From assembly GCF_014202635.1 (NCBI RefSeq), contig NZ_JACHHD010000013.1, positions 1-64,000 on the forward strand: DNA of 64,000 nucleotides, in the 5' to 3' direction. The stretch comes from Faecalicoccus acidiformans (GTDB lineage: Bacteria > Bacillota_I > Bacilli_A > Erysipelotrichales > Erysipelotrichaceae). The notes beneath the pieces are model-generated. The model had not been told where the DNA came from. It was given only the letters and a program-made list of their open reading frames with translations, and ran no database searches. Below, piece by piece: positions 7,591 through 64,000 of this stretch. The first letter of the stretch is position 1. Every line of letters begins with the position of its first letter. Position numbers and translations under genes: made by a program.

Positions 7591-8472
7591 ATGACAAAAA
7601 AGAAAGCACAATCGCGCTTTGTTGCTGCATGTCTGGCACCTGCTCTGATTCTCGTTACTCTGTTTATTGTAATTCCTACGATCCAGGTATTCCGATATTC
7701 TCTGTATCAAAAATCAAGCTTTGTAGGTGATGAGACGTTCATTGGATTAAAAAATTTCAAAACTTTGTTCAATGACTCCATTTTCCTTGAATCAATTCAA
7801 AATCAGATCTTGATCATTGTTGTTATCACAATGTTTACGATTGTGTTGGCAATATTCTTTGCGACATTATTAACTCGAGAAGAATTCAAGGGTAAAAACT
7901 TATTCCGTATCATTTTTTACATCCCAAATATTTTAAATATCGTTATTATTGCGGGAATTTTCTCTGCCATCTATGCCCCAAGCAATGGCTTATTAAATAC
8001 GTTGTTATCTTCCATTGGCCTTGATGCTTTGACTCGTCAGTGGATGGGAGATCCTGAAATCATTATTTTCTCCATTATTGGTGCGTTGGTTTGGCAAGCC
8101 ATTGGTTATTACATGGTTATGTATATGGCCAGCATGACTTCTATTCCTGAAAACTTATACGAAGCGGCAGCTTTGGAAGGAGCAGGGAAATTTAAACAAT
8201 TTTTCATGATCACCTTGCCGTTGATTTGGGATAATATTCGTCAAACATTAACTTTCTTTGTTATTTCAACGATCAATTTGAGTTTCTTGTTCGTTCAAGT
8301 AAATACAAACGGTCAATTTGGAACGCAAGTTATGTTGAATTATATGTATTCTAAGGCCTTCTCTGGAAACCTTGGATATGGTATGGCCATTGGAGTTATG
8401 ACATTTATTCTTGCTTTCTCCATGGCAGGTGCTTTGAATCGAGTCACGAAACGTGATCCAATGCAGTTTTAG
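7591..8472 (+). CDS. Sugar ABC transporter permease, MalF/UgpA type
   Basis: 293 residues with about six membrane segments. The cytoplasmic EAA loop, contact site for the ATPase, is EAAALEGAGKFKQFFMITLP near residues 191-210. Preceded by AAGGAGGAC and followed after 11 bases by the partner permease. It forms the membrane channel of the island's importer. Confidence 0.92.
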   Translation: MTKKKAQSRFVAACLAPALILVTLFIVIPTIQVFRYSLYQKSSFVGDETFIGLKNFKTLFNDSIFLESIQNQILIIVVITMFTIVLAIFFATLLTREEFKGKNLFRIIFYIPNILNIVIIAGIFSAIYAPSNGLLNTLLSSIGLDALTRQWMGDPEIIIFSIIGALVWQAIGYYMVMYMASMTSIPENLYEAAALEGAGKFKQFFMITLPLIWDNIRQTLTFFVISTINLSFLFVQVNTNGQFGTQVMLNYMYSKAFSGNLGYGMAIGVMTFILAFSMAGALNRVTKRDPMQF

Positions 8473-53363: not shown

Positions 53364-54266
53364 ATGAAATTGTTAGAAGCTTTAAATGATTACTTATTAG
53401 AAATCAAAGTAGTGGAAAATCGTGCGAATAATACTTTCAAAAGTTATCAAAGGGATCTAAAAGTGTATATTGATTTTCTTCAAGCTAAAGGAATTCAGGA
53501 AATGGAATCGATTACATTAGGAGATATTGAAGATTTTCTGATGTTTTATTTAGATAGTCATGCCCCAAGCAGTGCCAATCGCATGCTTTCCAGTATCCAT
53601 GGCTTTCATGAATTTACTTCTGCTAATCATCCGCACATCAAGAATCCGGCTTTTAGTGTTCGTGGTGTAAAAAAGAAGAACCATTTGCCTACATATTGTA
53701 CGCAGATGGAGATTCAGAAATTGTTTGATTCTTTTGATCAAAGTGATCAATCCATTTATGAAAAAACGATTTTAGAAGTATTATACACTTGTGGACTTCG
53801 GGTCAGTGAATTGTGTGATTTAAAAACAGTTCAAATTCGTCTTCAAGAACGGATCTTGAAAGTGCAGGGAAAAGGAGATAAAGAACGGATTGTCCCAATA
53901 GCGTCGAGCTGTATCGAACAAATGAAACTCTATCAGAATATTGTACGTTCGCAATGGATCCGTAAAAACACTCCTTATTTTTTCATTAATCGATATGGCA
54001 GACGTTTGACCAGACAATATGTTCATCTTTTGATTAAAAGAAAAGTAGAAGAGTGTCATTTAGATCCGCGTATTTCGGCGCACAGTTTACGTCATAGCTT
54101 TGCCACACATCTCTTGGAAGGAGACGCTGATCTTCGTGTAGTACAAGAATTGTTGGGACACGCTGATATTCAGACAACCCAGATCTACACGCATATTCAA
54201 AATGAAAGATTGACAAAAGCCTATGATCAGTATTTTAATTTTCTAGGGGAATCTAAGGAGGAATAA
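53364..54266 (+). CDS. xerD: Tyrosine recombinase XerD
   Basis: 300 residues. Catalytic set: Arg in LYTCGLRVSELC, Lys in VQGKGDKERIVPI, H-x-x-R in SAHSLRHSFATHLL, His in LLGHADIQTTQIYTH with the nucleophile Tyr. Core-domain SAM-like N-terminal DNA-binding part begins LNDYLLEIKVVENRANNTF. Likely chromosome-dimer resolution with a XerC partner outside the window; position in a housekeeping operon argues against a phage integrase. Confidence 0.9.
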   Translation: MKLLEALNDYLLEIKVVENRANNTFKSYQRDLKVYIDFLQAKGIQEMESITLGDIEDFLMFYLDSHAPSSANRMLSSIHGFHEFTSANHPHIKNPAFSVRGVKKKNHLPTYCTQMEIQKLFDSFDQSDQSIYEKTILEVLYTCGLRVSELCDLKTVQIRLQERILKVQGKGDKERIVPIASSCIEQMKLYQNIVRSQWIRKNTPYFFINRYGRRLTRQYVHLLIKRKVEECHLDPRISAHSLRHSFATHLLEGDADLRVVQELLGHADIQTTQIYTHIQNERLTKAYDQYFNFLGESKEE

Positions 54267-60089: not shown

Positions 60090-61031
60090 ATGAAAAGATT
60101 GACTGCATTATTAAGTGCTGCTTTTTGTACTTTTGCTCTAATTGGATGTACACCTAAAGAACCATCCGTTGAGATCACCGATGATGTTAATTTTGAATTG
60201 CTGGATGTGATGACAATTACAAATGACGAAAGTAATTCCATCTATTATTATTACATGGCTCAAATATCAAATGATTCAAAAGAGACCTATACAACTGATG
60301 AAGTTATCTATTCCATCACGGATCAAGGAAATGATGAAATCAATCCAATCGATGAGCATGAATCTATGCCTATTTCGACTGTGCTTCCTGAACAGACTGC
60401 ATACATTTATGGATATATCGGTTTTCCGAATTCGAATCAAGAAGATATGGGGTTTTATTTTAATGGTATAGATCAGTTTGTTTCATTTGAAAGTGTCAAT
60501 ATTCGTCTAGCAGACAATCACGATATTCAGGATTCGGACCAACTTAAATTTACAATCTATGAAGATTCTGCTCTCAAAATTGTTGTCGATGCCACTCAAT
60601 GCGATGCAACATTTGAAAATGGAACCACAACATTATCGAATTTTATTATTACGTATACGAATAAAACAGAGCAGCAAATCGCAGTTCCATATTTTGAACC
60701 ACAGGCAACATTAAAAGGATTAGATCTCGACGATTTTACATCTTTAGGTGATTTCTCTAAAATGAATGAAGAAGAAATTAAAGATATAGATTTTACTCAA
60801 AATAGTTTAGAACCTAAAACATCTGAAATTAAAGGGGAAGCTTATGGATATGTTGTGGAATATTTAGATCCAGAGCAATCTATAGACTGTAATGTCGGGT
60901 TTACATTTGAAAATGCTGCTATCAATTATAAAAGCGGTACAGAAAATTGTTTTGATCTAGATTTAGTTTCCAGAGCCTTTGGAGTTACACATTCTATGGA
61001 AGTTTCGTCCTCCGACCAAAAAGCATCTTAA
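60090..61031 (+). CDS. Secreted lipoprotein, DUF5067-like
   Basis: 313 residues. Lipoprotein signal MKRLTALLSAAFCTFALIGC (Cys20) followed by an acidic two-lobed beta-rich region; the pattern of an immunoglobulin-like domain with ISNDSKETYTTDEVIYSITD resembles DUF5067 proteins. The last ~150 residues repeat the pattern (NFIITYTNKTEQQIAVPYFE). Function unknown; probably surface-anchored. Its last codons and stop lie inside a palindromic terminator. Confidence 0.8.
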   Translation: MKRLTALLSAAFCTFALIGCTPKEPSVEITDDVNFELLDVMTITNDESNSIYYYYMAQISNDSKETYTTDEVIYSITDQGNDEINPIDEHESMPISTVLPEQTAYIYGYIGFPNSNQEDMGFYFNGIDQFVSFESVNIRLADNHDIQDSDQLKFTIYEDSALKIVVDATQCDATFENGTTTLSNFIITYTNKTEQQIAVPYFEPQATLKGLDLDDFTSLGDFSKMNEEEIKDIDFTQNSLEPKTSEIKGEAYGYVVEYLDPEQSIDCNVGFTFENAAINYKSGTENCFDLDLVSRAFGVTHSMEVSSSDQKAS

Positions 61032-61041: not shown

Positions 61042-61303
61042 ATTTTATCCTAATCATTTGTGATTGTCTGAGATGCATTGAAAATCCATATTGTTTATAA
61101 CTATACATATAGATGTAAATTAGAGAACCAATTCAAGATTAATATTATTTAAATACATCTTGATATAGATTTCATTATATAAGTTTTCGCTGAAACCGAT
61201 TTAATATCAAAATAACATATAAAATAGCATCTTCAAAACATAACATAATATACATTATGCGAAGTATTCAGCATTTAAGAATTGATTCACTTTTTTAAAA
61301 TTG
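61042..61303. other. AT-rich non-coding stretch before the transposon end
   Basis: No open frame with a ribosome site, no RNA gene and no clear repeat is visible. It probably is flanking chromosomal DNA between the lipoprotein gene and the transposon terminus. Confidence 0.5.
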
Positions 61304-61312
61304 TGTCATTAT

Positions 61313-61550
61313 ACAATATAAGATGAAACTAACAATTAAAATGAAACCAACGAATAAAAATGTACTGTTTTCACCTGTTTTTTATACAATTAGAATGAAA
61401 TCAACGTACTTTTTATCCATATAATAGGTGATGCTTTTTCTCAAATTAAAATGAAACGAGTTGTTTTCTCCTTCGGACATTTTATACAATAAAAATGAAA
61501 CCAAATACTATTTACTTGAATTTGTATTGTACAACTAAAATGAAACCATC
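61313..61550 (+). repeat. Six direct ~21-bp repeats (probable transposase binding sites)
   Basis: Copies at about 61313-61333, 61332-61352, 61386-61406, 61442-61460, 61486-61506 and 61531-61550 share ACAATTAAAATGAAACCAACG; ATGAAA is invariant. Centre-to-centre spacings are about 19, 54, 56, 44 and 45 bases, all in the same orientation. Irregular clusters of ~20-bp direct repeats inside the terminus are the known layout of TnsB/TniA sites. Confidence 0.8.
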
Positions 61551-61571: not shown

Positions 61572-63223
61572 TTATTTTAATATAACAAAAATGCACCCAT
61601 AACAGAGTGCAAGTTTATTATTGAGTGATTGCTTGAAGCATTTCTTCTTGAGTGGTTTATTCTTCCCTCGAGCTCTGAGTTTTGGCTTAGTAAGTTCTGA
61701 GATGATGGTTTGTTTGATTTCTCTATTCGACATATCGTCTAAGCCTTTCTTTATTAGTTTATTAAAACATTTTTCTATTTCGATTCTATCAAAACCGACG
61801 TTTTCAATATCCTTAATAATTGGTTCTTTAATCTTCGCAATATTTAACATCATATCTGATAGTTCTATTTGCTTAGCTTCAGATTCTTTATTCTGCTCTT
61901 CTGATTTTTTGAGCAGTTCTTTTAGATGATTTTTCGTTTCTTCTGAAGCTTTTTTTAAGCAATTATCTGACATAGGGTCCTTTAAGAGATTGTTTAATTG
62001 TTTCATATAAGGGAAATATTTTCTACTTACCATCCTTACGTAGTCACCATTCACCTTAGGTTTCTTCCCTTTCTTTTCAAAGTAATAGATATGCATCATG
62101 ACATATAAACTTATTAGCTGGTCGATGATGCCATAACTGCACTTTTTCAAAGCATTTACCATATCTTCATCACAATCTACCCAGGTGTCAAACCATTGAT
62201 AATTCATCATGAAACTTACGATATTCTTGAAATAGGAATCATTTTCTGTATATGTGGATGCATCTATGAGTGTACCTACCCTTCTTGCGTTTCTTAGATT
62301 AATGAACATCTTAGAATATGCATCTTCGGTACCAATGACTGCAATAGATATTTTAGTAGCATTTACGATTGTCATTAAACCTTCAAACGAATTCTCTTTT
62401 GTATGCTTAAAGTCTATTAACTGTATTTCATCCAAAAGAATGATTCCTATATTAAATGTCTCAATCAATTCAATTACTTTATTCATTTTAGAGGATAATC
62501 CTTTAGTCTTTAGAATGACCTCTTCGTAGTAAGGTTGAATATTTCCTAGCGCCCTATCAACTGCTTTTCCTATTGAAATATACATTTCATTGAAGTTACT
62601 GTTTGGAAGGCAATTCACAACTAAATATACTATCTGAGGAATAACGTCTTCACTTCCCGGTACTTTATGAAGTATCACCTGTGGATAATCCATTAATAGT
62701 TGTTTTAAACTGGTTGATTTCCCTACTCCACTATATCCTAATAAGGCAAATGAAGAATTAGCAGAATCGGCAGCATCTCCATACATTTTCTGATGTAGTA
62801 TTACATCTTGATTAACAATATTGGCAGGGATTTTGGCTTTCGTATCGCGATAAAGCTTCCTTAATCTATAGGAGTTTACTAGAGAACTATGAAAGGCATC
62901 CTCTAATTGTTTTTGAAAGGATAGACAGATACGAAACTTGGTTCTCATTTCATTCACTGCCATAATCTTTTCATGCACGGTCATTTTCTTAACGTTTTCA
63001 AAGTCATAATCAGCCAGACCCTTTGTATACTTTAACATTAACTGTTTGTCATCATCTTTAGCAGGTGGAAGTGCTGCAATAAATGGGTTTTTCACATCAG
63101 ACTCAGTACCATTTTCAATGTAAATTGCTTCTACAGGTTCTTCATCTTCTAATAGTTTTCTATCATATTGATTGTCTGATTTTCTTAGTTTTTGGTTTTA
63201 ATATTCCATTGATAAGCTTTCAT
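61572..63223 (-). CDS. TnsC/TniB-like AAA ATPase of the transposon, with -1 frame break
   Basis: The main uninterrupted frame runs from GTG 63095 (507 residues), but its natural start looks to be ATG 63223, 7 bases after AGAAAGGAGA. That frame reads MKAYQWNIKTKN and hits TAA at 63185-63187; a -1 shift there continues LRKSDNQYDRKLLEDE into the main frame with no further stop, giving about 550 residues. Walker A is FALLGYSGVGKSTS (about 120-127 of the shorter form), Walker B GIILLDEIQLID. Such ATPases bind target DNA and activate the TnsB-type transposase. The slip site AAA-AAC-TAA could be programmed frameshifting, mutation or a homopolymer error. Its 3' end lies just inside the repeat array. 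Confidence 0.8.
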
Positions 63224-63238
63224 ATATAACTCTCCTTT

Positions 63239-63741
63239 CTAGTCTTCTTCGTAAACAATTCCGTATTTTTTATCTTCCTCTTCTTCCAGTGCGAGCTGAG
63301 CTGCCATCAATGCCTTGATTGGGTCATACGGTTGTTTTAATTCTTTTGTATTGTCTTTTAACAAGCGAGATTCGATATCATTATTAGAACGATTTGAATC
63401 ACGTTCATTTTTACGAGTTTCTATCATATTCTTTGAATCCATTTCTTTATTATTCTGCTTTTTAGCTGTCTTAACCATATTGTCGAATACAGCTACTCTA
63501 GAACTTCGAATAGTTTGTTGTTTTGATTATTTTCTTCTCTTAATAGTTTCTCATTTTCTAAGAAATCAAGCCTCTCTTGTCTAGTGCTATTTATAAAGTC
63601 ACTTTGTCCTCTAATGTCTTCAATTAAAGAAGCAGACGTTAAAACATTAGATACAGGATTCATGTAATATAAGTTCGTAATATTTCGTTCATCATATCTG
63701 CAATCAAAAGGTTCACTTCTATTCCCTGTATGAATCATTAC
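63239..63741 (-). pseudogene. TnsB/TniA transposase C-terminal remnant, frameshifted
   Basis: From about 63741 to 63493 one frame encodes PFDCRYDERNITNLYYMN, the beta-barrel (Mu-transposase C-terminal) pattern of TnsB/TniA proteins. After RQERLDFLENEKLLREEN and a short Asn-rich stretch it stops at 63493. A -1 shift near 63514 would continue TIRSSRVAVFDNMVKTAKK down to TAG 63239-63241, directly before the TnsC ribosome site. An in-frame stop at 63742-63744 precedes the remnant, so the catalytic D-D-E core is missing. Truncated and broken, hence a pseudogene. Confidence 0.65.
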
Positions 63742-63814: not shown

Positions 63815-64000
63815 TTATAACGACTTATAATAAGCCTCAATCTTTTTAGCCATCAAGATACGTCTTTCCTTCAAGAATTCCTCATAATTCTCTACCGTAT
63901 ATTCTGTAAATCGGCTAGGAATACAGTTCTGAGCAAAATTATGTTGTAATTCTTGACTATCAGTAATACTACAGATATCTGTTTTACCTTCCTGCATTTG
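63815..64000 (-). CDS. C-terminal end of an unidentified protein (5' partial)
   Basis: The frame is open to the window edge and ends in FTEYTVENYEEFLKERRILM and AKKIEAYYKSL. The combination of a C-I-P-x-x-F segment with a final FLxxRRxLMAxKIxxYY helix recalls the tails of GmrSD-like (DUF262/DUF1524) defence proteins, but this is only an impression. It ends 74 bases before the transposase remnant and has a terminator, so it seems to sit where the rest of the transposase gene should be. No function is assigned. Confidence 0.5.
   Translation of the reverse strand, partial: QMQEGKTDICSITDSQELQHNFAQNCIPSRFTEYTVENYEEFLKERRILMAKKIEAYYKSL

Follow-up and report, generated by a model that had tools for sequence, protein, structure and literature searches.

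Tn7 and the Tn7-like elements with TnsD sites carry genes for TnsA, TnsB, TnsC and TniQ together with arrays of TnsB sites, lie at a fixed distance from their target and stack at one site. TnsD reads the end of glmS, and other targets in the group are tRNA genes, parE, yhiN and comM. In a 64,000-nucleotide stretch of DNA from Faecalicoccus acidiformans (the window), the end of a decayed transposon of this kind lies beside dif, at which joined chromosomes are separated in bacteria. Relatives of this element share the anatomy of the Tn7-like group, and it is very probable that a group of such TnsABC+TniQ elements uses dif as its attachment site. Unlike the described elements, they would target dif rather than a gene or tRNA, their TniQ is short and tnsC adjoins the dif-proximal end.

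The Tn5053/Tn402 res-site hunters likewise have one TniQ and a site-specific recombination site as target, and Tn5053 elements are reported to sense res sites with resolvase bound to them (Minakhina 1999, as cited in PMC11406308). A first, sequence-only reading of the locus had proposed a Tn7/Tn5053-type end. The Tn7-like half of that proposal stood, as a TniB/AAA-type TnsC lies next to the end and relatives have TnsA, TnsB, TnsC and TniQ. The Tn5053 family, however, has no TnsA and carries a resolvase; the comparison fits the mode of targeting and not membership, because TnsA is present in the relatives, no resolvase gene was recognised in the cargo examined, and the site targeted, chromosomal dif, is one used by tyrosine recombinases. 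The nearest published case is the IS1202 family (ISAjo2, ISAba71), single-gene insertion sequences that hunt dif sites with a TnsB-like transposase and TGT/ACA ends, inserting 5 bp from the XerC arm (PMC10132070). In contrast, the elements treated here are multi-gene and lie 34-38 bp from dif, on either side. Target selection through TniQ and a tyrosine-recombinase-like partner also recalls Tn6022, whose TnsF has an inactivated tyrosine recombinase domain (PMC10293859). TnsF is encoded by the element and reads comM, whereas no such gene was recognised in the dif elements, where host XerCD would serve. Searches of full-text literature, and of two main surveys and a review, turned up no Tn7-like element assigned to dif; most subscription-only papers were outside reach, and priority is accordingly not firm.

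The landmarks of the window locus are as follows.

61238..61265, minus strand: chromosomal dif, ACTTCGCATAA-TGTATA-TTATGTTATGT (read from 61265 down to 61238)
61266..61303, no strand: gap from dif to the transposon terminus, 38 bp (34-37 bp in relatives)
61304..61316, plus strand: transposon terminus TGTCATTATACAA, with TGTCGTTATACAAC at the corresponding place in the congener G001
61314..61332, plus strand: putative TnsB site 1
61332..61350, plus strand: putative TnsB site 2
61386..61404, plus strand: putative TnsB site 3
61442..61460, plus strand: putative TnsB site 4
61486..61504, plus strand: putative TnsB site 5
61531..61549, plus strand: putative TnsB site 6
61572..63197, minus strand: tnsC, AAA+ regulator of the TniB family (Pfam AAA_22 and TniB above cut-off; relatives known)

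Judged by its sequence, the 28-mer at 61238..61265 is the chromosomal dif. It is 28 bp long with two 11-bp arms. When up to three mismatches are allowed, the 1.77-Mb genome has a single match, and 0 matches are expected by chance in the window. It also lies where GC skew switches sign, from +0.07 before to -0.085 after (-0.165 at the start of C4, the contig that represents the other arm). Its XerC arm, 61255-61265, faces the transposon. It has CGCATAATGTATATTATGTTA, 21 consecutive bases, in common with the dif of E. coli, which is experimentally confirmed (PMC3025954). Congeners and other family members have dif once per genome, mostly between a lipoprotein gene and gpsA-der, and each relative in which dif was found has one credible copy.

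On the transposon side, six ATGAAA cores lie on the plus strand at 61323, 61341, 61395, 61451, 61495 and 61540, and none was found on the minus strand of 61304-61550. The six ordered, same-strand repeats behind a terminus that the sequence-only reading had described are thus confirmed, starting after TGTCATTATACAA at 61304. So is the layout it had noticed, since core-to-core spacing is 18, then 54, 56, 44 and 45; the first two copies overlap or touch and the others are 44-56 apart. The 16-mer repeat consensus has 9 matches in 1 kb when up to five mismatches are allowed; 1000 dinucleotide shuffles gave 1.7 on average and never more than 7. A 19-mer form at up to three mismatches has four matches in the window, all inside the array, where 0.25 are expected, and two copies of the 61304-61550 array are the only places in the genome with the exact 13-mer AAAATGAAACCAA. 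An array of TnsB sites at an end starting with TGT is a feature of Tn7-like elements; such an array, of putative sites, is present in the window, and similar arrays are found in relatives. The array forms the tnsC-proximal end of a Tn7-like transposon that has decayed. The suspicion of a new target rule was also well placed, as dif lies 38 bp outside the terminus, just beyond the stretch on which that suspicion was based.

Relatives were gathered by TnsC similarity, blind to dif, and their surroundings were checked afterwards. The distance from terminus to dif is 38 bp in the window (measured from the XerC arm), 37 in G001, 36 in G024, 34 in G142 and 36 in G062, where it was measured on the XerD side. 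Since relatives collected without regard to dif nevertheless lie at a similar distance from it, this transposon group appears to use dif as a landing signal. G001 carries the same relic as the window at the same place, and G002 probably does too: a TnsC fragment is present there and the contig with dif ends immediately beyond that site, which fits the same relic, the contigs not being joined. The G142 element adjoins a dif form that nine of 11 genomes in its genus have, each at a single place; two genomes match this form on both strands because the site is near-palindromic. Among 20 dif loci scanned, TnsC lies within 1.5 kb of dif in four (G000, G024, G062 and G142), and the G001 and G002 loci are cut by contig ends.

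In G062, the element and dif lie at 1.6386 Mb of a single 3.21-Mb contig, and dif is flanked by two oppositely facing elements, each with its terminus exactly 36 bp away. The XerC-side array differs from the XerD-side array and belongs to a relic of its own, in which a TnsC C-terminus remains (51% over 69 amino acids, E 5e-18). At about position 8155 of L020, the dif-proximal element meets, at its left end, the right end of an older and almost identical copy (TnsC ~98% identical). That older end is truncated, which makes the duplication at the left end of the dif-proximal element unreadable.

G024 and G062 are the two dif elements with tniQ, and in both the gene order is tniQ-tnsA-tnsB-tnsC-end. 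TnsA (Tn7_TnsA-like_N domain) and an integrase-core TnsB were recognised in each, with TnsB intact and rve above cut-off in G024. The G062 tnsB is split across two frames and may be inactive.

In the G024 sequence, which contains masked stretches, the left end of the dif-proximal element (reverse complement TGTCTCTCCAAAACTAAC) adjoins GCTTT, beyond which lies the right end of an older relic. On the side of dif, GCTTT recurs one base short of the right terminus as read. GCTTT is a probable 5-bp target duplication. When the element is removed and the flanks are joined, the terminus of the older relic comes to lie 37 bp from dif, and behind this relic is a further relic end with TnsC pieces. A newer element in front of older ones at dif means that insertions recur at the same place. 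Extending the sequence to find the inverted end, the target duplication and tniQ, as the sequence-only reading had advised, yielded none of these for the window copy, where they are unobtainable because the copy is truncated; G024 supplied both ends and the probable duplication. The whole stretch from dif to gpsA in G024 (C38:175500-222000; L023, L024, L097, L098) spans ~46 kb and contains, besides a Tn7-like element that is almost complete, two or more relic ends, making it a graveyard of mobile elements close to dif.

In the mechanism we propose, TnsB would bind the arrayed sites at both transposon ends, and a short TniQ would mark dif, more likely through contact with dif-bound XerC/XerD than by reading dif alone. 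TnsC would bridge TniQ and TnsAB, its footprint setting the fixed distance, and insertion would fall to one side or the other of the 28-bp dif, ~36 bp away, leaving dif intact. We infer that TniQ is the target selector. XerC/XerD are proposed as its partner because small TniQs have been argued to depend on a partner selector (Faure et al., PMC10293859) and because the cargo examined (type I restriction genes in G062, assorted genes in G024) included no recognised tyrosine recombinase. Sensing of Xer-bound dif would be analogous to the res-site hunting of Tn5053; the chances that TniQ contacts the Xer recombinases at dif are about even. The fuller proposal, in which host XerC/XerD at dif would be the selector, read via a minimal TniQ, with insertion ~36 bp to either side and perhaps tied to the end of the cell cycle, is tentative and just short of an even chance.

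As the chief alternative, TniQ or another protein of the element may instead read the DNA of dif directly, without Xer, which would leave targeting of dif as it is and change the mechanism. The conserved, quasi-palindromic dif would then explain the use of both sides, and the G024 TniQ has a very basic C-terminal stretch (an AlphaFold model of this protein, with a predicted local distance difference test score of 43, was too poor and was not used). However, the TniQs of the two dif elements, 305 and 348 amino acids long, do not have the long C-terminal extension of the TniQ/TnsD proteins of ten non-dif elements (519-847 amino acids), and small TniQs usually work with a partner (PMC10293859). 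Direct reading is thus conceivable and on balance doubtful.

Insertion might instead track the replication terminus, through converging forks or breaks, as in TnsE-directed Tn7; dif does lie at the GC-skew switch, and Tn7 transposes into regions of replication termination (Peters and Craig 2000, as cited in PMC11406308). A terminus-wide preference would be far looser than a gap of 34-38 bp on either side of dif, and no TnsE was recognised in the cargo examined, which makes this quite improbable. Inheritance of a single ancestral insertion fits G001, with the same relic at the same place, and probably G002. It is highly improbable for the set as a whole, in which terminal sequences and junctions differ among copies, both sides of dif are used in differing orientations, TnsCs are divergent (~25-36% identity), elements are stacked in G024 and two different repeat families flank dif in G062. 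Entry of islands by Xer recombination at dif, with the Tn7-like genes as passengers, follows the precedent of IMEX elements in other bacteria (PMC5357621) and was rejected as scarcely credible, since dif is single rather than duplicated, the boundary consists of an array of TnsB sites whose TGT terminus lies 38 bp from dif, G024 has both ends and a likely duplication, and intact elements have no second dif-like site at their far boundary.

Several points weigh against dif as the attachment site of this group. The copy in the window is broken, without tniQ, tnsA or a second end, and its own target duplication cannot be shown. In G024, the duplication is displaced by a single base at one of the ends, and the gaps are uncertain by 1-4 bp, as terminal bases were inferred from sequence. 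Of the two dif elements with tniQ, G024 alone has a TniQ above the Pfam cut-off, and G062 gives a weak match below it (E 0.007). There are only about five independent events, all within one bacterial order, and the TnsC tree has no single clade for the dif elements. The role of Xer is inferred and stands outside what was observed directly, namely the anatomy, the identity of dif by sequence, the fixed distance, the repeated independent use and the stacking. Wider searches of the class and phylum returned no additional dif elements; viral contigs and phages gave no relatives and plasmids only distant TnsC, a relative's TnsC as query finding the annotated Tn7-like transposition protein C there.

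The remaining features of the window locus comprise two host genes and a second transposon gene.

53364..54266, plus strand: Xer-type tyrosine recombinase gene of the host (Pfam Phage_integrase and SAM-like domain), at a distance of 7 kb from dif
60090..61031, plus strand: host lipoprotein gene flanking dif (murT-gatD-lipoprotein-dif synteny)
63239..63741, minus strand: tnsB C-terminal remnant in two frames

The lipoprotein gene was found in 17 of the 145 family genomes searched, and gpsA, on the far side of the window dif locus, sits at the start of C4. The window tnsC is frameshifted near its N-terminus, with the start region out of frame. The catalytic part of tnsB is absent; because the remnant has no TnsB Pfam match, it was assigned by its position upstream of tnsC, its appearance and the gene order of relatives. 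The window contig, C13 (67726 bp), ends 3.7 kb beyond the window. No tniQ, tnsA or second end was found in the window, in these 3.7 kb or at the start of C4, across the gap, and no further or inverted array in the rest of C13 or at the start of C4. Frameshifts in both tnsC and tnsB, together with the missing parts, mark the copy as a relic. Directly behind the tnsB remnant, a GmrSD/DUF262 restriction-type gene runs from 63815 to 64000 and on to L005 5609; it has a partial PADLOC HEC-05 match and is possibly transposon cargo. C4 opens with IS21-type genes (L108 485-2451); this repeat is probably why the assembly is interrupted between C13 and C4.

Ten other relatives were not found to lie at dif.

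L017, L018, L022, L090: beside nrdD
L088: beside ispD
L021, L027, L028, L029, L087: other surroundings

Those in the first group, from several genomes, have a long TnsD (717-799 amino acids) and adjoin nrdD, the gene for anaerobic ribonucleotide reductase, which seems to be a second attachment site that Tn7-like elements share. In L088 (G225), the end array at ~8036-8174 overlaps or touches the start of an ispD-like gene, and TniQ/TnsD has 519 amino acids.

Nearly every circular bacterial chromosome has dif once and must keep it intact, which makes it an ideal safe and near-universal landing site. If the reading presented here is true, dif would join the list of attachment sites for Tn7-like elements, and Tn7 targeting would be linked to tyrosine-recombinase complexes as that of Tn5053 is to serine resolvases. 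Target finding by small TniQs without CRISPR or a long DNA-binding tail would become directly testable, and a route to dif-directed DNA insertion would be at hand.
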